64,000 bases of DNA from Thermomicrobiales bacterium (GTDB lineage Bacteria > Chloroflexota > Chloroflexia > Thermomicrobiales > CADCWN01), in contig JAUJMV010000012.1 of the NCBI GenBank assembly GCA_030446685.1, positions 86,631 to 150,630 on the forward strand. Reading direction: 5' to 3'. The notes under the pieces were generated by a model that did not search any database, was not told the origin of the DNA, and was given only the letters and a program-made list of their open reading frames with translations. This document shows positions 6,119-58,820 of this stretch, piece by piece. The translations under genes and the position numbers were made by a program. Every line of letters starts with the position of its first letter. Positions within the stretch are counted from its first letter, which is position 1.

Positions 6119-6132
6119 GCCGTCCTCGGTCC

Positions 6133-13678: not shown

Positions 13679-14381
13679 GGCTCCGCTCCTGGCGATCGAC
13701 ACCTCGACGCTGCAGGCCGGGCTGGCGGTGTACGGGGAGGACGGCCCGCTCGCCGAGCTCACCTGGCCGGCGGGGCGGGCGCAGACGGCGGCGCTGCTCG
13801 ACGCGATCGACCGGCTGCTGGCGCTGGCCGGCCTGCGGGCGACCGATCTCGGCGCGGTGGCGGTGGCGACCGGCCCCGGCTCGTTCAACGGGCTGCGGGT
13901 GGGGCTGAGCACGGCGAAAGGGCTCGCCTTCGCCCGCGGGCTGCCGCTGATCGGGATCCCGACCCTCGACGCGACCGCCTACCCGCACATCGGGGCCGGG
14001 CGACCGGTGCGCGCGGTCCTGGCCGCCGGGCGCGGGCGGCTGGTGAGCGCGCTCTACCGTTGGCAGGGCGACAGTCCACCGTACGGCCTGCGGCGGGCGG
14101 GCGAGTACGAGAACACCTCGCCGGAGGGCCTGGCGGCGCTGATCGTCGAGCCGACGATCCTCTGCGGCGAACTCGACGGCGCGACCGCCCGGACCCTGGC
14201 GACCCTCGCCCCGGTGGCGCGGATCGCCGCCCCGGCGCTGCGCCCACGCCGCCCCGGCTCCCTGGCCGAGTTGGCCCGCGAGCGGGCGCGGCGGGGCGAC
14301 TACGACGACCCGGCCCTGCTGGAGCCGGTCTATCTGCACGGACCGGGCGGACAGGCGGGCAGGCAGGCAGGCGGACAGTGA
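13665..14381 (+). CDS. tsaB: tRNA threonylcarbamoyladenosine biosynthesis protein TsaB
   Basis: Inactive ASKHA-fold partner that scaffolds TsaD and TsaE in t6A synthesis; 238 residues. Family motifs are LLAIDTSTLQAGLAVYG (residues 8-24), AVATGPGSFNGLRVGLSTAK and GLPLIGIPTLDATAY. The GTG start at 13665 lies within the tsaE 3' end, so the two are coupled. The C-terminal GGQAGRQAGGQ is encoded by a GGCAGGCAGGCAGG word repeat rather than by conserved sequence. Confidence 0.93.
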   Translation: MSTAEAPLLAIDTSTLQAGLAVYGEDGPLAELTWPAGRAQTAALLDAIDRLLALAGLRATDLGAVAVATGPGSFNGLRVGLSTAKGLAFARGLPLIGIPTLDATAYPHIGAGRPVRAVLAAGRGRLVSALYRWQGDSPPYGLRRAGEYENTSPEGLAALIVEPTILCGELDGATARTLATLAPVARIAAPALRPRRPGSLAELARERARRGDYDDPALLEPVYLHGPGGQAGRQAGGQ

Positions 14382-14492
14382 ACGGAGGCGATGCCGTGCC
14401 TTTTCCTATGAAACGTTCCTGTCGCCTGGCGGACTGCTCGCGCGCCGATCTGCCCGCCCTCGACCTGCGCGCCCGTCCGCCCGCCCGCCTCT
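14345..14492. repeat. Paired tandem-word repeat between tsaB and rimI
   Basis: Left arm 14345-14377 is built of GGCAGGC/GGCGGAC units. The right arm around 14450-14492 carries the complementary CCCGCC/CCGTCCGCC units. The left arm contains the tsaB stop region. The 137-base gap holds no other supported gene. Confidence 0.6.
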
Positions 14493-14518: not shown

Positions 14519-15202
14519 GTGCCATACTACATTGAGCCGATGCAGCAGGAAGACGTGGCCGAGGTGAGCCAGGTGGAGCGGCGGTGCTTCTCCAACCCCT
14601 GGCCGAGCAGCGCGTACCGGCGCGAGCTGCGCAATCCCAACCAGAATTACTACGTCGTGGCGCGCTGGCGCGATCCGCGCGCCCCGACGCCGCCCCCCGC
14701 CGAGGAGCGTGCCCGCCCCGCCCTCGGGCTGCTGCCGTTCGTGCGCCGCGCCGACCCGGCCGCGACGAAGGGGCCGATCCTCGGTTTCGGCGGGATGTGG
14801 ATCATGCTCGACGAGGCGCACATCACCACGATCGGGGTCGTCCCGGAGCAGCGCGGGCGGTCGCTCGGGGAGGCCCTCTTCGTGGCGCTGCTCGACGAGG
14901 CGCAGCGGCGGCGGGCGCGTTGGGTGACGCTGGAGGTCCGCGTCTCCAACGCGGGGGCGCAGGCGCTCTACGAGAAATACGGCTTCACGCGCCAGGGCGT
15001 GCGCAAGCGGTACTACAGCGACAACGGCGAGGACGCCTACATCATGTGGTCGCCGCCGCTGACCGACCCCGCGACCCGCGAGCAGTACCGCGAGTTGCGC
15101 GCCGCCCTGGGGCCGAAGCTGGCGCGCTGGCACGACTCGCTGGAGGAGGCGGATCGGCGGATTGGCGGGCAGGCGGGCCGCTACGTGGGAAATGGGGAAT
15201 GA
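14519..15202 (+). CDS. rimI: Ribosomal-protein-alanine-type N-acetyltransferase (RimI-like GNAT)
   Basis: GNAT acetyltransferase located inside the t6A operon, the usual place for RimI. The core has IEPMQQEDVAEVSQVERRCF, the acetyl-CoA loop VVPEQRGRSLGEALFVALL (about residues 101-119) and VRVSNAGAQALYEKYGFTRQ. Two features are longer than in typical RimI: a Pro/Ala-rich insertion at about residues 52-82 and a C-terminal helix (TREQYRELRAALGPKLARWH) of about 50 residues. GTG 14519 fits the first beta strand of the family. The C-terminal GGQAGRYVGNGE again derives from a word repeat. Confidence 0.85.
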   Translation: MPYYIEPMQQEDVAEVSQVERRCFSNPWPSSAYRRELRNPNQNYYVVARWRDPRAPTPPPAEERARPALGLLPFVRRADPAATKGPILGFGGMWIMLDEAHITTIGVVPEQRGRSLGEALFVALLDEAQRRRARWVTLEVRVSNAGAQALYEKYGFTRQGVRKRYYSDNGEDAYIMWSPPLTDPATREQYRELRAALGPKLARWHDSLEEADRRIGGQAGRYVGNGE

Positions 15203-15268
15203 TGGACCCCGCCCTCGCTATCTCCGCCCATCTCCGTTCACTGCCCACCTGCCCGCCTGCCCGACCGG
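15164..15268. repeat. Paired inverted word repeat between rimI and tsaD
   Basis: GGGCAGGCGGGC at 15167-15178 pairs perfectly with GCCCGCCTGCCC at 15251-15262. The left arm is translated as the RimI C-terminus, and the right arm ends eight bases before the tsaD Shine-Dalgarno GGGGGA. Confidence 0.75.
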
Positions 15269-23077: not shown

Positions 23078-24941
23078 TTGCTACAGGTAGAACCGCAGGA
23101 GCTGCACGGCTACGCGCGCAAGGGTTACGAAGAGGAAGTCACCGATAATCTGGAGGATCTGTTCGCCGCCCTGCCGCCCCACCTGGTGGCGCGGTTGCGC
23201 ACCACCGACAACCGCGCGCTGCTGGAGCTGGTCCTGGACCTCGGCCGCAAGCCGGAGGCCCGCTTCGCGGGGACCGAGCTGGTCCTCGACGAGCAGGACG
23301 TGACGCGCGCCGACCTGGAGTACGTCGCCGGGCGGATCGGCCACTTCGGGGAGGACAACCGCGCCGGGATCGAGCGGACGCTGCACCGCATCTCGGCGAT
23401 CCGCAACCGCTCCGGCGCCATCGTCGGCCTGACCTGCCGGATCGGGCGCGCCGTCTACGGCACGATCGCGATCATCCAGGACCTGGTCGAGTCGGGCGAG
23501 AGCATCCTGATCCTCGGGCGCCCCGGCGTCGGCAAGACGACGATCCTGCGCGAGACGGCGCGGGTGCTGGCCGACGCGCTGCGCAAGCGGGTGGTGATCG
23601 TCGACACCTCCAACGAGATCGCCGGGGACGGCGACATCCCGCACCCGGCGATCGGCCGGGCGCGGCGGATGCAGGTGCCGCGCCCGTCGGAGCAGCACGC
23701 GGTGATGATCGAGGCGGTGGAGAACCACATGCCGGAGGTGATCGTCATCGACGAGATCGGCACCGAGCTGGAGGCGCAGGCGGCGCGGACGATCGCCGAG
23801 CGCGGGGTGCAGTTGGTCGGCACGGCGCACGGCAACACGCTCGAGAACCTGATGCTCAACCCGACGCTGGCCGACCTGATCGGCGGCATCCAGTCGGTGA
23901 CCCTCTCCGACGAGGAGGCGCGGCGGCGCGGCACGCAGAAGTCGGTGCTGGAGCGCAAGGCGCCGCCGACCTTCACGGTGCTGGTGGAGATCCAGGACCG
24001 CGACCGGGTGGCGATCCACCGCGACATCGGGGCGGCGGTCGACGCCACGCTGCGCGGCAGCCCGCTGGCGACCGAGGCGCGCCAGCGCCGCGACGACGGC
24101 GGGATCGACGTGAGCCACCAGGAGAGCGACCCGCGCCCGCAGGACGGCGGGCGCGCGGGCGGGCGGCGGCGCGACGACCGCGCCCAGGCGCTCCCCGGCT
24201 TCGGCTTCGGCAACCGGCGGGCCGGGCGGGGGCCGAACCCCGCCGCGCCTCTGGGGACCGCGCCCCCGTCGCGCGGCCGGGAGGCGCCGGGCGCCCCGGC
24301 CGTGACCCTGCCGCCGGCGGCCGCGCTGGACGCCCCGGCGGCCGGCGCGGCCCCGGCTACGGATGCGCCCGACCCGCTGGCGCGGGGCGCGGGACCGCGT
24401 CCCGGCCGCTGCGGCTCTACCCGTTCGGCGTCAGCCGCAACCGGCTGGAGCAGGCGATCGCCCATCTCGGCGTCGCCGCGACGATCATCCGCGACCTGCG
24501 CGACGCCGACATGGTGATCACGCTGAAGAACTACTACCGCCGCCGCCCGCAGCAGTTGCAGGAGGCGGAGGCGCTCGGCAAGCCGGTCTACGTGCTGCGC
24601 AGCAATACCGGCACGCAGATGGAGACGGTCCTCGCCGGCGTCTTCGGCACGACGGCGCCGGCCGGGGCGCGGGAGGGCCAGTTCCCACCGCCGCGCCCGG
24701 CGCCGGTGACCCGATCGGGATCGACGACGAGCCGGAGGACGACGTGACGCACGCGCTCTTCGAGGCCGAGGTGGCGGTGAACGAGGTGATGGACTCGGCC
24801 CGGCCGATCGCCCTCACCCCGCAGAGTTCCTACATCCGCCGCCTCCAGCACCAGGTCGCCGAGCGGTACAACCTCAACTCGCGCAGCCGCGGCAAGGAAC
24901 CCTACCGGCGGGTCGAGATCCTGCCGGGGGGCGGCAGTAAT
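23078..24941 (+). CDS. AAA ATPase with C-terminal R3H single-stranded nucleic-acid-binding domain (frameshifted in the second half)
   Basis: Conserved Chloroflexota-type protein. N-terminus [20 protein letters not shown]; SpoIIIAA-like ATPase core with Walker [21 protein letters not shown], Walker [21 protein letters not shown] and [20 protein letters not shown]. After a Pro/Ala/Arg linker the protein continues in a second frame from about 24400 ([40 protein letters not shown]). From about 24715 it is in a third frame ([20 protein letters not shown], the R3H motif). The start is TTG 23078 with GAGGTG eight bases upstream. The probable stop at 24939-24941 also needs a one-base correction in a G run. 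Confidence 0.8.
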
Positions 24942-24942
24942 G

Positions 24943-25077
24943 CGGATTGCGGATTGCGGATTGCGGATTGCGGAATACGAGGCCCCCGAGGGGGCGTGGT
25001 GGGTACCGCGCACATGGGCGCTGCTGGCGGGCGGTTCGCCCCTACAACCCCAAATCCGCAATCCGCTCCCCGCAATC
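24943..25077. repeat. GCGGATT tandem repeat with inverted partner, between the R3H ATPase and tmk
   Basis: Left arm 24943-24976 is four and a half copies of GCGGATT. The right arm 25052-25077 has complementary AATCCGC units and ends at the tmk ATG. The spacer contains GGGCGGTTCGCCCCTAC, a half-copy of the element at 35811-35934. Confidence 0.8.
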
Positions 25078-25713
25078 ATGAGTTTCATCGTCTTCGAGGG
25101 GCCGGAGGGGGGCGGCAAGACGACGCAGGTGCGCGCCGCCGCCGCCGCGTTGCGGGCGCGGGGCGTGCCGCTGGCGGTGACGCGCGAGCCGGGCGGCACC
25201 GCTATCGGCGAGCAATTGCGCGCGGTTTTGCTCCAAACGTCCGCCTCTGCTATGCTGCCGCGGGCCGAGGCGCTGATCCTCTTCGCGGCGCGGGCGCAGC
25301 ATGTGCGGGAAGTGATCGCGCCGTCCCTGGCGCGCGGCGAGGTGGTGCTGTGCGATCGGTACGTCGGCGCGACCTATGCGTACCAGGGCTACGGGCGCGG
25401 GCTGCCGCTCGAGGAGTTGCGCGCGGTGCAGGCCTTCGCCGCCGGCGCGGTGGCGCCCGCGCTGACGATCCTGCTGGACCTGCCGGCCGAGCTCGGCCTG
25501 GCGCGGCGGGTCGCCGCCGGCGGGGTCAACCGGCTCGACGACGCCGGCCTCGACTTCCACCGCCGGGTGCGGGACGGCTACCTGGCCCTGGCGGCGGCGG
25601 ACCCGGGGGGGTGGGTGGTGATCGACGCGACGGCGGCGGTGGCGGCGGTGACGGGGCGCGTCCTGGCGGCCGTCGGCGCGCACCTGGGGCTGCATCTGGA
25701 ACGGAAGGACTGA
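25078..25713 (+). CDS. tmk: Thymidylate kinase
   Basis: Phosphorylates dTMP to dTDP; 211 residues. P-loop FEGPEGGGKTTQVRAAA (residues 5-21), the DR(Y/H) motif VVLCDRYVGATYAYQGYGRG and the lid region RVAAGGVNRLDDAGLDFHRR. The ATG at 25078 comes directly after a repeat arm, without a Shine-Dalgarno, so translation may depend on the leader structure or on coupling. The thyX gene that makes its substrate lies 3.7 kb upstream on the other strand; darA follows downstream. Confidence 0.95.
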   Translation: MSFIVFEGPEGGGKTTQVRAAAAALRARGVPLAVTREPGGTAIGEQLRAVLLQTSASAMLPRAEALILFAARAQHVREVIAPSLARGEVVLCDRYVGATYAYQGYGRGLPLEELRAVQAFAAGAVAPALTILLDLPAELGLARRVAAGGVNRLDDAGLDFHRRVRDGYLALAAADPGGWVVIDATAAVAAVTGRVLAAVGAHLGLHLERKD

Positions 25714-25717
25714 TTCC

Positions 25718-25846
25718 CGAGTCCTAGACTTTGAATGCTGAGTCCTGAGTGCCGAGCAAAGCCCGGGACTCGAGGCGCCGGGGAGCAGGTAATGAGATGC
25801 GGCGCTCGGCCAGCGCTGATTATTCAGGACTTAGGACCTAGCACTG
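25718..25846. repeat. GAGTCCT / TGAGTGC word repeat with inverted partner, between tmk and darA
   Basis: Left arm 25718-25756 contains GAGTCCTAGACTTTGAATG and TGAGTCCTGAGTGCCGAG. The right arm around 25826-25846 contains the complement-like CAGGACTTAGGACCTAGCACT. The arms are imperfect but share word content in inverted order. Confidence 0.65.
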
Positions 25847-35810: not shown

Positions 35811-35934
35811 CGGTGCGTAGGGGCGGCCCTGCGTGGCCGCCCACGGCTCCGCAGAGCCGCCCAAGCCCCCGCCCGCCTGTGACGTGGGGGGTCGGGGAAG
35901 CCGGGCGGCCACGCAGGGCCGCCCCTACGCACCG
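35811..35934. repeat. 31-base perfect inverted repeat
   Basis: Arms 35811-35841 and 35904-35934 are exact reverse complements (CGGTGCGTAGGGGCGGCCCT onward), separated by 62 bases. Each arm also folds on itself (GGCGGCC, CTGCGT, GGCCGCC). Fragments ending in GCCCCTAC occur at about 25031-25046 and 55838-55856. The structure resembles a non-autonomous repeat element. Confidence 0.9.
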
Positions 35935-42697: not shown

Positions 42698-42780
42698 CAG
42701 TGCTGAGTGCTGAGCGACGAGTGCTGAGTGGGGCTGTAACTCTCGACCGTATGCGCCGAACGCTCAGTTCTACTCGGCAC
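42698..42780. repeat. TGAGTGC tandem repeat with inverted partner
   Basis: Left arm 42698-42730 carries TGAGTGCTGAG, a GCGACGAG interruption and TGCTGAGTG. The right arm 42759-42780 has CGCTCAGTTCTACTCGGCAC. The right arm codes for the last residues of HU; the left arm lies just before the Shine-Dalgarno of the 40-residue gene. Confidence 0.7.
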
Positions 42781-50951: not shown

Positions 50952-52302
50952 ATGTTTCTGGTCGAAGGCGGACACCGCCTGGCGGGGACGATCGCGCCCG
51001 CCGGCAACAAGAACGCGGCGCTGCCGATCCTGGCGGCGGCGCTGCTGACCGACGAGCCGGTCACGCTGCGCAACCTGCCGCGCATCCGCGATGTCGAGGT
51101 GCTGCTCGAACTGTGGCGCAAATCTGGCGCAAATCGGCGTGCAGATCACCGAGCACGGCCCCAACGAGGTCACGATCCACGCGCGCGAAATCGCCACGAC
51201 CGACCTCGACCCGCGGCTCTGCGCGCGTATCCGCGCCTCGATCCTCCTCGCCGGCCCGCTGGTGAGCCGCTGCGGCCGGGTCCGATTTCGCGCCGCCGGG
51301 CGGCGCGACAGCATCGGGCGGCGGCGGATCGACACCCACTTCCTGGCGCTCGGCGCGCTCGGGGCCGAGACGACGCTGGCGACGGGCGGCGCCTTCGAGT
51401 TGCGCGCCGACGAGTTGCACGCGGCGGACATCTTCCTCGACGAGGCGAGCGTGACCGCGACCGAGAACGCGGTCGCCGCCGCCGTCCTCACCCCGGGGCG
51501 CACGACGATCGCCAACGCCGCCAGCGAGCCCCACGTCCAGGATCTCTGCCACTTCCTCAACGGCCTGGGCGCGCGGATCGGCGGGGTCGGCACCAACATG
51601 CTGACGATCGACGGCGTCGAGCGGCTGCACGGCGGCAGCTACCGGATCAGCGCCGACCACATCGAGGTCGGCAGCTACATCGGCCTGGCGGCGGCGACCG
51701 GCAGCGAGCTGACGATCCGCGACGCGGTCCCCGAGCACCTGCGGATGATCGGCCTCGTCTTCGCGCGCCTCGGCATCCGCACCGAGGTCCGCGGGGCCGA
51801 TCTCTTCGTCCCCGGCGACCAGGCGCTCCGGATCCAGGACGACCTGCACGGGGCGATCCCCAAGATCGACGACGGCCCCTGGCCGGCCTTCCCGGCCGAC
51901 CTGACCAGCATCGCGCTGGTCACTGGGCGACCCAGGCGCGCGGCACGGTGCTGATCTGGGAGAAGATGTTCGAGAGCCGCCTCTACTTCACCGACAAGCT
52001 GATCCAGATGGGCGCGCGGATCGTCCTCTGCGACCCCCACCGGGCGGTGGTGGTCGGCCCGGCGCAACTGCACGGCGAGACCCGCGCAGAGCCCGGACAT
52101 CCGCGCGGGGATGGCGCTGCTGATCGCGGCCCTGGCGGCGCGCGGGACGAGCACGATCCACGCGGTCGAGCAGATCGATCGCGGCTACGAGCGGCTGGAC
52201 GAGCGCCTCGGCGCGCTCGGCGCGCGGATCGAGCGCGTCGACCACCGCGTCGGCGCGAGGCGTCTGACGAAGTACGAACGACGAAGTACGAACGACGAAT
52301 GA
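50952..52302 (+). CDS. murA: UDP-N-acetylglucosamine 1-carboxyvinyltransferase, three frame changes, Asp at the active-site Cys position
   Basis: First committed step of peptidoglycan synthesis. Segments in order: [20 protein letters not shown] and [16 protein letters not shown]; then, in a second frame from about 51125, [60 protein letters not shown] and [20 protein letters not shown]-like sequence. From about 51930 [20 protein letters not shown], and from about 52090 [20 protein letters not shown] and [20 protein letters not shown]. The loop that normally holds the catalytic Cys reads RRDSIGRRR, with Asp aligned to Cys. The last residues are encoded by an ACGAAGTACGA repeat. Confidence 0.85.
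51114..51135. repeat. 11-base tandem duplication inside murA
   Basis: TGGCGCAAATC occurs twice back to back (51114-51124, 51125-51135). Removing a 10-base unit restores the MurA frame as [13 protein letters not shown], so this duplication causes the first frame break. Confidence 0.85.
52266..52302. repeat. ACGAAGTACGA word repeat at the murA 3' end
   Basis: Alternating GACGAAGTACGAAC units followed by GACGAATGA. It encodes the MurA tail [12 protein letters not shown] and includes the stop codon. Confidence 0.7.
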
Positions 52303-54309: not shown

Positions 54310-54384
54310 ACCGCGGAGGGCGCGGAGATCACAGAGGACGAGAAAAGAGACAAAATCTGCCGCGTTCTCTGCGCCCTCCGCGGT
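54310..54384. repeat. 17-base inverted repeat downstream of the dehydratase gene
   Basis: ACCGCGGAGGGCGCGGA (54310-54326) pairs with TCTGCGCCCTCCGCGGT (54368-54384), one mismatch. The 41-base loop is purine-rich and AT-rich (GAGGACGAGAAAAGAGACAA). AAAA follows the right arm. It lies between convergent genes and may terminate both. Confidence 0.75.
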
Positions 54385-56575: not shown

Positions 56576-57241
56576 ATGGGCGCACGTACACCTGTGGTGG
56601 GAGTGCTGATAGCCGGCGGGCGGGCGCGTCGAGGGCGGGCGGTGGCGACGATGATGGCGGCGGCGCGGGGGGCGGCTATCGCGTCGGCCAGTTCTTGCGG
56701 GCGCTCGTGCCGCTCGTGCCGGCGCGCGACCGCGCCCTCGCCGCGGCGGTCCTGACCCCGGCGCAGTTCGTCGCCTTCCGCGCGCAGGGCGCCGCCGATC
56801 AGCGCCACGCGGCCCTGGTCCTGCGGACGGTGCTGGCGGCGGGCGGGCGCGACCAGGATCTGGCGGTGGCGGCGCTGCTGCACGACCTGGGCAAGGTCGC
56901 CGCGGACGGCGCGGGGCGGGTGCGGCTGCCGCACCGGGTGGCGAAGGTGCTGCTCGCGCGGGCCTGGCCCGCGGCCTGGGCGCGGCTGGGCGCGCGACCG
57001 CGTCGTGGGCCGCTCCTGGGCTGCTATCTGCTCCAGCACCACCCGGCGCTCGGGGCGGCGTGGGCCGCGCGCCTCGGCTGCGCGCCGCGCGCCTGCGCGC
57101 TGATCGCCGCGCACCAGGACGGCAATTGCGGACTGCGGGTTCCCGCGGTGGGGAAGATGCGGATTGCGGAATGGGGACCGGCACGATGCCGATCTGGATG
57201 AGGCGTTGCGTCTGCTGCGATGGGCCGATGATCGATCCTGA
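56576..57241 (+). pseudogene. HD-domain protein gene disrupted at both ends, with a repeat element in its 3' part
   Basis: The core reads GQFLRALVPLVPARDRALAA, DQRHAALVLRTVLAAGGRDQ, DLAVAALLHDLGKVAADG (HD doublet) and LLGCYLLQHHPALGAAWAAR, with LIAAHQDG following. The frame then runs through a GCGGATT-type element and stops at 57201. Beyond the element another frame continues with DADLDEALRLLRWADDRS and a stop at 57241, which looks like the natural C-terminus. The N-terminal start is also unresolved: ATG 56576 is in a different frame from the core. So the gene is either interrupted by an insertion or affected by several sequence errors. Confidence 0.6.
57121..57178. repeat. GCGGATT-family repeat inside the HD gene
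   Basis: Contains AATTGCGGACTGCGGGTT and GATGCGGATTGCGGAATG around a TTCCCGCGG centre. It is the same word family as 24943-25077. Its reverse-complement partner is at 57323-57352. Confidence 0.7.
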
Positions 57242-57307
57242 GCCCAACGGAGTGCGGACGGCCGCGGGCGCCCCCGGTATTGGCGCAAGGCGAGAGGGCG
57301 CGTCGGC

Positions 57308-58135
57308 ATGAGCGTCGTCGACTCCGCAATCCGCAATCCGCAATCCGCAATCCCCTACCAGTGTCGCCTGCCCGGGTTCGAGGGGCCGCTCGACGTGCTG
57401 CTGCGGCTGATCGAGCGGCGCGAACTCGACATCACCGCGATCTCGCTGGCGGCGGTGGCGGACCAGTTCCTGGAGCACCTGGCGGGGCTGCCCGACCGCG
57501 ACCCGGCGATTCTGGCCGAGTTCGCGGCGGTCGCCTCGCGCCTGCTGCTGCTGAAGACGCGCGTCCTCTTCCCCCGCGCGCCGGAGCCGGCCGGGGAGCC
57601 GGAGGGCGCCGAGGACGACCCGGACGATCTGGTGGCCCAGTTGCGCGAGTACCGACGGATCAAGGCGGCGGCCGGGGGGTTGGCGGCGCGCGAGCGGGAC
57701 GGGCTGCGCGCCTTCGCCCCGCGCGTCGGCCCGCCGGACCCGGATGGGCCGCCGGCGGCCGCCGCGCCGGTCGTCGAGGTGACGCTGGCCCCGGCCGGGC
57801 CGGCCGATCTCTTGCGCGCGGCCCACCGGCGGCTGTCGCGGCTGCCGGCGACGCCGCGCGTGCTGACACTGCCGCCCCGGATCAGCGTCGGCGAGATGGC
57901 GGCGCGGATCGCCGAGCGGCTGCGGGCACGCCGGGCGGTCCGCTTCAGCGCGCTGGTGACGCCGGGGATGCCGCGGGGCGATGTCGTGACGACCTTCATG
58001 GCGATCCTCGAGCTGGTGCGCCGCCGCCGCGCCGAGGCGCGTCAGGAGGAGCCGTTCGGCGAGATCGTCGTCCTGCCGCCGCCGGGGGCGCTCGCCGAGG
58101 CTGGGCGGGAGGTCGAGGATGCCGCCGACGACTGA
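57308..58135 (+). CDS. scpA: Segregation and condensation protein A
   Basis: Kleisin subunit of the bacterial SMC complex; 275 residues. N-terminal kleisin block: LPGFEGPLDVLLRLIERREL DITAISLA and LAEFAAVASRLLLLKTRVLF; the C-terminal winged helix includes PPRISVGEMAARIAERLRAR and VVTTFMAILELVRRRRAEAR. The first about 16 residues ([14 protein letters not shown]) are encoded by an AATCCGC tandem repeat and are not part of the family. A start inside the repeat (ATG 57308) is the only one available. It overlaps scpB by 17 bases. Confidence 0.93.
   Translation: MSVVDSAIRNPQSAIPYQCRLPGFEGPLDVLLRLIERRELDITAISLAAVADQFLEHLAGLPDRDPAILAEFAAVASRLLLLKTRVLFPRAPEPAGEPEGAEDDPDDLVAQLREYRRIKAAAGGLAARERDGLRAFAPRVGPPDPDGPPAAAAPVVEVTLAPAGPADLLRAAHRRLSRLPATPRVLTLPPRISVGEMAARIAERLRARRAVRFSALVTPGMPRGDVVTTFMAILELVRRRRAEARQEEPFGEIVVLPPPGALAEAGREVEDAADD
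57323..57352. repeat. AATCCGC tandem repeat translated as the ScpA N-terminus
   Basis: Four copies of CCGCAAT in tandem. It is the reverse complement of the GCGGATT words at 57121-57178. It lies in frame inside the scpA coding region. Confidence 0.75.
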
Positions 58136-58820
58136 CGGCGGGGGGGCGGGGCAGGCGCCGCTGCCGGCGTCGGCGGGCGGCGCGGCCGGCGAGCTGGCGC
58201 TGCCCGCGCTCTGCGAGGCGCTGCTCTTCGTCGCCGCCGCGCCGGCGCCGGTCGAGGATCTGGCGAATGCCGCCGGCGTGCCACCCGCGGTGATCGAGGC
58301 GGCGCTGGCCGAGCTGGCGGGGCAGCTCGCGGGGCGGGGCATTCGCTTGCAGCGGCACGGCGACCGCTACGCGCTGGTGAGCGCGCCGCCGGCCGCGCGG
58401 CCGATCGCGCGCTTCCTCGGCCTGAGCCGGGTCGAGCGGCTGTCGGCGGCGGCGCTGGAGACGCTGGCGATCGTCGCCTACCGCGGGCCGGTCACGCGCG
58501 GCGAGGTTGAGGCGATCCGCGGCGTCGACAGCAGCGGGGTGCTGCAGACACTGGTCGCGCGGGAACTGGTCGAGGCGGTCGGGCGGCGGGCGGCGGTCGG
58601 GGCGCCGATCGAGTACGCGGTCACCGCCGCCTTCCTGCGCCACTTCGGGCTGGCGAGCCTGGCCGACCTGCCGCCGCTGGGCGAGGTCAACGACGAGCCG
58701 GTCGAGGAGGTCTGGGACCGGCGCATGGCGAGCGACGAGCGACGAGCGACAGCTTGCCCTGAGCGAAGCGAAGGGAGCGACGAACACCGGCGCGGGCAGG
58801 GGAACTCTAGTCCGGCGTGA
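58119..58820 (+). CDS. scpB: Segregation and condensation protein B
   Basis: Second accessory subunit of the SMC complex; about 233 residues. Two winged-helix domains: LCEALLFVAAAPAPVEDLAN, then LSAAALETLAIVAYRGPVTR and GEVEAIRGVDSSGVLQTLVA. FLRHFGLASLADLPPLGEVN is the typical C-terminal core. After EEVWDRRM the sequence becomes repeat-encoded (SDERRATACPERSEGSDEHR), so the biological end is probably near residue 205. The smc gene is not in the window. Confidence 0.92.
   Translation: MPPTTDGGGAGQAPLPASAGGAAGELALPALCEALLFVAAAPAPVEDLANAAGVPPAVIEAALAELAGQLAGRGIRLQRHGDRYALVSAPPAARPIARFLGLSRVERLSAAALETLAIVAYRGPVTRGEVEAIRGVDSSGVLQTLVARELVEAVGRRAAVGAPIEYAVTAAFLRHFGLASLADLPPLGEVNDEPVEEVWDRRMASDERRATACPERSEGSDEHRRGQGNSSPA
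58729..58785. repeat. GCGACGA repeat plus CCCTGAGCGAAGCGAAGGG element at the scpB 3' end
   Basis: GAGCGACGAGCGACGAGCGA followed by CTTGCCCTGAGCGAAGCGAA GGGAGCGACGAAC. It encodes the non-conserved ScpB tail. It belongs to the same class of gene-end word repeats as the others in this window. Confidence 0.7.

Follow-up and report, generated by a model that had tools for sequence, protein, structure and literature searches.

Tandem-word hairpins between stop codons and Shine-Dalgarno regions in intercistronic gaps of Thermomicrobiales genomes

The window analysed here is a stretch of 64,000 nucleotides (G000:C33:86631-150630) from a 7.04 Mb Thermomicrobiales (Chloroflexota) MAG, G000, assigned to this order through DarA and Tmk searches. 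Between the gene for an R3H protein and tmk, it carries an element made of an array of heptamers and, further downstream, the inverted partner of that array. An earlier note on this DNA had claimed the same design, tandem words with an inverted partner, at eight sites. Each listed site was compared with 300 dinucleotide shuffles, and p values are given for tandem words and inverted partner, in that order. Both were significant at 24943-25077 (p =.003/.003), 15164-15268 (p =.003/.003), 14345-14492 (p =.003/.007) and 57121-57352 (p =.003/.003), and the claim stood there. The site at 54310-54384 was confirmed as a hairpin, its inverted repeat being strong (p =.003, fold z -6.5) and its tandemness weak (p =.043), and the one at 42698-42780 as an array, with significant tandem words (p =.003) and a nonsignificant partner (p =.126). 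The sites at 25718 and 41253 were weak. Among the forms described as single-sided, those at 6122 and 58729 are real arrays and that at 52266 is a repeated 14-base unit; the one at 1-20 turned out to be two-sided.

Table 1. Arms and arrays at the listed sites, in window coordinates
Feature	Start	End	Strand
tmk element, 5' arm: exact heptamer array (TGCGGAT) x4.9, directly 3' of the R3H-protein coding region	24941	24974	+
tmk element, 3' arm: AATCCGCAATCCGC and a further partial copy, up to the tmk start codon (25078)	25053	25077	+
tsaD element, 5' arm: octamer words GGCGGATC/GGCGGATT/GGCGGGCA, in overlap with the GNAT (RimI-like) gene at its 3' end	15148	15178	+
tsaD element, 3' arm: (CTGCCCGC)n, just 5' of the SD of tsaD (15276)	15241	15268	+
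14345 element, 5' arm: octamer words GGCGGACA/GGCGGGCA, on the 3'-terminal part of the TsaB-like gene	14346	14378	+
14345 element, 3' arm: CTGCCCGC / CGCCCGTC words	14446	14492	+
Hairpin of degenerate heptamers (GAGTCCT/GAGTGCC words) in the tmk-darA gap; weak alone (p =.18/.07)	25718	25846	+
Weak site: 14-base unit CGCGGCGTGCGGAA x2, weak partner (p =.03)	41251	41373	+
AGTGCTG array, 4.6 degenerate copies, weak partner	42699	42780	+
Strong hairpin, 5' arm: ACCGCGGAGGGCGC, resembling octamer class ACCGCAGAGGCGCAGAG of G001	54310	54323	+
Strong hairpin, 3' arm: partner of ACCGCGGAGGGCGC	54371	54384	+
5' arm TGCGGATTGCGGA at the 3' end of the gene preceding scpA	57158	57170	+
3' arm (TCCGCAA) x4.4, inside the scpA reading frame at its 5' end	57323	57353	+
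(GACCTTC) array; partner 101 nt upstream, beyond the window edge	1	18	+
(GTCCTCA) x3.4 array, without detected partner	6122	6147	+
Single-sided 14-base unit GACGAAGTACGAAC x2.4 (two heptamer words)	52266	52304	+
(CGAGCGA) array, then CAGCTTGCCCTGAGCGAAGCGAAGGGAGCG	58729	58785	+

Other sequence features were observed in the window. A perfect 32-bp inverted repeat (CGGTGCGTAGGGGCGGCCC...) that encloses a 60-nt loop and lacks tandem words lies at 35811-35934 and represents another intergenic hairpin class, like C25:224058 and C25:229382. The sequence CGACAGCTNGCCCTGAGCGRAGCGAAGGGAGCG comes after the GAGCGAC array both at 58750-58785 of the window and at G000:C33:7650-7689, and is part of a 40-bp stem at C33:7650. 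In the region of the tmk element, the R3H-protein frame (window 24363-25727) runs without a stop up to and across the element and continues open through tmk in another frame. The R3H stop (CGCTAG) of G001 (AVDCRST_MAG18), the only same-family relative compared with G000, is absent in G000, indicating that the element or a nearby indel changed the C-terminus. The tmk frame is open across the whole element in G000 (window 24940-25077) and in G001 (L068 ~1411-1515), and in G001 the tmk start codon must fall inside the element.

For a wider survey, we counted as an element any inverted pair that spanned 11 bp or more, was tandem at period 7 or 8 and had one or more A/T in each word. The samples comprised 762 kb (G000) and 1.14 Mb (G001), with genes predicted by a simple custom caller. 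The detector passed 47 elements in the G000 sample and 97 in the G001 sample, against 2 and 0, respectively, in shuffled sequence (counted before the A/T-per-word filter), in agreement with the earlier idea that it is the architecture and not the sequence that recurs. Since bulk sequence covers only these samples, genome-wide numbers are sample-based, and it is by extrapolation that G000 and G001 would each hold hundreds of tandem-word hairpins. Small samples from other Thermomicrobiales families gave 0-30 elements per Mb. Long exact repeats were concentrated at period 7: runs with at least 16 matches numbered 10 on G000 C33, 20 on G000 C25 and 7 on G001 C167, with none in shuffles of these sequences and none in G018, a distant relative of which 100 kb was scanned. 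In that stretch of G018 (L129-L133), degenerate heptamers resembling TGCGTCA form two hairpins. Of 71 heptamer runs whose units contain two or more A/T, 54 were intergenic, 8 lay at gene ends and 9 deep in called genes; 62 were thus intergenic or at gene ends, called genes making up ~73% of the sequence, and shuffles contained almost none. The comparison with coding regions and shuffled sequence that had been proposed at the outset therefore came out in favour of gene boundaries. Runs of period 6, 9 and 12 lay mostly within genes, as expected for codon-phase repeats.

The elements have a median length of 100 bp, with a loop of 57 nt and an extended stem of 24 bp (both medians). Their arms consist of tandem 7- or 8-base words, the 3' arm being the inverted partner of the 5' arm. 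AGT was much more frequent than ACT in 5' arms (39:8 and 171:3), which indicates an arm polarity common to many words. In 118 well-behaved stems, 240 unit-to-unit variants were mirrored by a complementary change in the opposite arm and 112 were not, compared to about 10 mirrored variants expected if the arms varied independently; the count of 240 is an upper estimate, as seed-based detection favours mirrored cases. Despite differing units, 66 of the 107 stems of at least 16 bp were exact. A telomerase-like origin of the arms was dropped, since the arms mirror each other's irregularities.

Mirrored irregularities are also the expected product of template switching between arms, and the period-7 and period-8 arrays vary in copy number. 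Both observations fit an origin at the DNA level only, in which slippage grows the words, hairpin-templated (quasipalindrome) correction copies the arms, and elements are intergenic merely since they are harmful elsewhere, with no role for the RNA. We consider this explanation unlikely, albeit a serious candidate, because it accounts neither for words that recur at dozens of loci and are missing from the sister genus nor for a G-U bias restricted to these stems (described below). The slippage-grown hairpins suggested in the earlier note are affected by the same observation: slippage alone is insufficient to put one word at dozens of loci.

Elements were located mostly in co-directional gaps, between the stop codon and the next Shine-Dalgarno (SD) region, confirming the position at gene boundaries. 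With all gap orientations pooled, stems started a median of 0 nt (G000) and 4 nt (G001) past the stop codon and ended a median of 21 nt (G000) and 26 nt (G001) before the next start, and a GGAG-like SD was often found directly 3' of the element. Subtraction of the element left a median gap of 19 nt (G000) and 34 nt (G001); element-free gaps had medians of 131 nt and 128 nt. Within the slack of the gap, the element sat toward the stop side (p = 1e-4 and 5e-12). Roughly every fifth medium-length co-directional gap holds such an insert: in G000 and G001 alike, the number of elements in co-directional gaps of 61-200 nt amounts to ~21% of the number of these gaps. The preference for co-directional gaps was significant relative to divergent gaps (p = 1.2e-4) and marginal relative to convergent gaps (p =.053); elements were also present in convergent (13) and divergent (10) gaps. 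The stop-to-SD placement may reflect this interval being the one harmless place for insertion.

A hairpin directly 3' of a stop codon could also be an intrinsic transcription terminator or an attenuator. As a rule, however, no U-run followed the stems: the T fraction was 0.20-0.21, and 4 of 288 ends had at least five T in eight positions. The stems are thus not intrinsic terminators. The loops of ~57 nt and the location of sites inside gene clusters, such as tsaB-rimI-tsaD and R3H-tmk-darA, also speak against this explanation, which we find hardly credible.

We then considered stem mismatches as read on the mRNA strand in co-directional gaps. G-U pairs outnumbered A-C pairs by 38 to 19 (p =.016), and by 22 to 10 in a per-element count (p =.050); a more lenient mismatch set gave 59:34 (p =.012; per element, p =.044). 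The bias is modest and based on ~60-90 mismatches. Control inverted repeats lacked it, with G-U:A-C ratios of 29:32 for nontandem intergenic repeats and 27:38 for those inside genes, which argues against a general transcription-linked mutational asymmetry. The bias therefore suggests, to a modest degree, selection on pairing in mRNA. Together with the placement, it lends modest support to the mRNA structure that the earlier note had envisaged, for which a regulatory role would be hypothetical.

The vocabulary comprised 24 words for 47 elements in G000 and 26 words for 97 elements in G001. There was no single dominant word per genome, the commonest occurring in 5 of 47 and 16 of 97 elements. 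GATTGCG (GATTGCGGATTGCGG) had 156 matches in G000 and 0 when read backwards; it had 0 matches in G001 and in all other Thermomicrobiales searched, and 16 and 31 in two genomes from another family of the class. GTAGTCC (GTAGTCCGTAGTCCG) had 0 matches in G000, 146 in G001, 27 in G004 and 0 in 58 others. Reversed control words gave essentially no matches in the genomes. This distribution indicates that words were amplified privately and patchily, and the earlier view that words differ between loci and form no repeat family had to be abandoned at the scale of the genome. Neighbouring sampled elements did not share words above expectation, and same words were not locally clustered. Words of G000 and G001 also match heptamer arrays on cyanobacterial, Legionella, Streptomyces, Peribacillus and haloarchaeal plasmids. 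A universal cross-phylum vocabulary was rejected, since reversed control words also match arrays or similar sequences; the sole cross-phylum signal standing out was the cyanobacterial share (6 of 13 records) for the GAGTGCT query. On the Natrialba magadii plasmid pNMAG01 (L228, about 216 kb), GAGCTAY, GAACTAC and GAATCAC heptamer arrays lie between two haloarchaeal plasmid genes. Hairpins of related layout with octamer-like words (ACCACAAAGGCACAAAGG; ACCGCAGAGACGCAGAG) were seen at G000:C25:152072 and on G001 C43, C120, C168, C219 and C246, and are possibly a separate, widespread family.

Loop-to-loop BLAST comparison gave only 12 matches, largely arm remnants. In G001, with softer masking, the similarity among same-word loops was slightly but distinctly higher than among different-word loops (p = 7e-10), and also higher than in shuffles (p = 6e-7). 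This suggests that same-word elements in G001 probably descend from each other as units, with loops diverging fast. Same-word loops of G000 were almost unrelated. The sampled stretches of G000 and G001 contained no near-identical element copies, and an Rfam search gave no match above the gathering score. Dispersed intergenic inverted pairs forming hairpins, word families with weakly related loops in G001, and Y1_Tnp genes in both G000 and G001 would be in keeping with REPIN-like nonautonomous elements moved by a tyrosine transposase (RAYT/IS200-like). However, element density within 1.5 kb of five Y1_Tnp loci in G000/G001 was no higher than background, and Y1_Tnp genes occur also in element-sparse genomes, so that their presence is not tied to density. 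Moreover, the arms are tandem heptamers, with 24-26 words per genome, and not short palindromes with a GTAG/CGTC tag. Such an origin is thus improbable, and no enzyme for element spread was found.

The gaps of G000 were compared with their orthologues. Upstream of tmk, G000 has GATTGCG, G001 has GAACGCG and G005, from another family, has a GTTCGNN hairpin; in the other relatives inspected, this gap is tight or short and without an element. Upstream of tsaD, the octamer element of G000 corresponds to a GTAGTCC element in G001. Similarly, the words are GAGGACT versus GAAGTAC at C25:292478, CAGTCGT versus GAAGTAC at C25:205465 and AGTCGGGT versus GAACGCG at C25:139131. Orthologous gaps can thus bear this architecture with different words, in line with the earlier note. 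A binding array for a translational or transcriptional regulator that recognises heptamers, an idea put forward in print for TAACTGA repeats (PMC4679880), would explain the position beside SD and stop. Such wholesale word change between orthologous gaps, and the 24-26 words per genome, make it very improbable; what is conserved is pairing and not a motif.

Occupied and empty orthologous sites were both seen, as for mobile insertion (MITE-like). Of 41 orthologous gaps, 11 and 9 were occupied in G000 and G001, and the 4 that were shared do not exceed chance (p = 0.22). The conservation of position expected by the earlier note was therefore not observed, and no single site is demonstrated as retained. 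It is simpler to assume that permissive gaps gained and lost elements independently. Word replacement in place is possible at the tmk gap, where the words of G000 and G001 are two substitutions apart and the intermediate GAATGCG is present in G000. At G001:C366 ~12248, the orthologue of window 55294, an outer AGTCGTC pair surrounds unpaired inner AGTGCCA and AGTCCGT arrays; from this compound gap, elements seem to insert into elements.

We tentatively favour the explanation that the elements are self-complementary inserts that spread within the genome and are tolerated in intercistronic gaps by folding out of the mRNA. Inserts of ~100 bp, with a stem of ~24 bp of tandem 7-/8-mers and a loop of ~57 nt, would multiply in families that share a word and would be retained chiefly in short intercistronic gaps, from the stop codon to the next SD region. 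In mRNA, the stem would fold the whole insert out, so that the terminating ribosome and the next SD would stay close, and this closeness would make the insert tolerable. The insert may in addition serve as an intercistronic structure, in the manner of REP/BIME hairpins. Words would grow through slippage in 7/8-base steps, arm complementarity would be kept by RNA-level selection, by hairpin-templated copying or by both, and vocabularies would be replaced between genera. It is conceivable, albeit more doubtful, that these inserts form a class defined solely by a structural grammar, in which genome-private words are switched wholesale between genera and selection keeps the arm complementarity and the exact stop-to-SD fit, the insert folding out so that translation of the next gene stays intact. 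If the fold-out model is true, it would explain how repeats invade operons without silencing the next gene, and would provide hundreds of natural intercistronic stems for studying stop-to-SD distance and structure in reinitiation. It is also notable that a single word recurs at dozens of loci whose loops are hardly related, and that units of seven or eight bases occur in such different bacteria.

Cyanobacterial repeats of a comparable kind include STRR and Elhai's small dispersed repeats (SDR). Compared with repeats of the Xanthomonas/cyanobacterial type, the elements have the same intergenic excess of 7-base tandems and the same close convergent array pairs, but no one dominant word. The heptameric GGGNATC repeats of Xanthomonas are paired in convergent orientation at 70-75 sites (Rehm et al. 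2015, PMC4692102) and share with the elements of G000 and G001 the 7-base tandem words, the noncoding excess and many close inverted pairs that can form stem-loops. They differ by having one word type per genome and are discussed as G-quadruplexes; a multi-word vocabulary, mirrored variation and stop-to-SD fit are not among the features that this account reports (PMC4692102). In Nostoc, the P6b stem of the trnL intron is built on heptamers, TDNGATT or NNTGAGT (PMC4476775), and is thus similar to the elements in being a tandem-heptamer stem, in which either of two words can occupy one position. The NNTGAGT word class is also found in the elements (GAGTGCT, GAGTCCT) and on Nostoc plasmids. In contrast to the ~25 intercistronic words per genome seen here, the cyanobacterial repeats form a stem in a group I intron (PMC4476775) or single-sided arrays.

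REPs and REPINs resemble the elements as dispersed inverted hairpin pairs between co-directional and convergent genes (PMC3116915, PMC3733652), and both the location preference and G-T pairing in stems have been noted for REPs (PMC3733652). The elements likewise consist of two inverted repeats and a spacer forming a hairpin, but lack conserved palindromic REP arms and a flanked RAYT gene. REPs, as characterised in these reports, have a short conserved palindrome, a GTAG/CGTC tag and a RAYT, whereas the elements are made of tandem words and no RAYT association was found (PMC3116915, PMC3733652). The TAACTGA direct repeats of Beggiatoaceae and cyanobacteria form arrays immediately upstream of start codons (PMC4679880); they are similar as heptamer arrays near start codons and differ, according to that study, in being direct repeats of one word with a single inverted case. 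Chloroflexus aurantiacus, from the same phylum, has (GATAGRA)n heptamer satellites (PMC6749651), which again are heptamer arrays, but of one word, and paired architecture or gap placement is not reported in the description cited. Thus, paired heptamers, heptamer-built stems and REP/REPIN hairpin pairs are already known, whereas the combination of a private multi-word vocabulary, mirrored variation and a tight stop-to-SD fit is, as far as the cited accounts go, not described and sets the elements of G000 and G001 apart.
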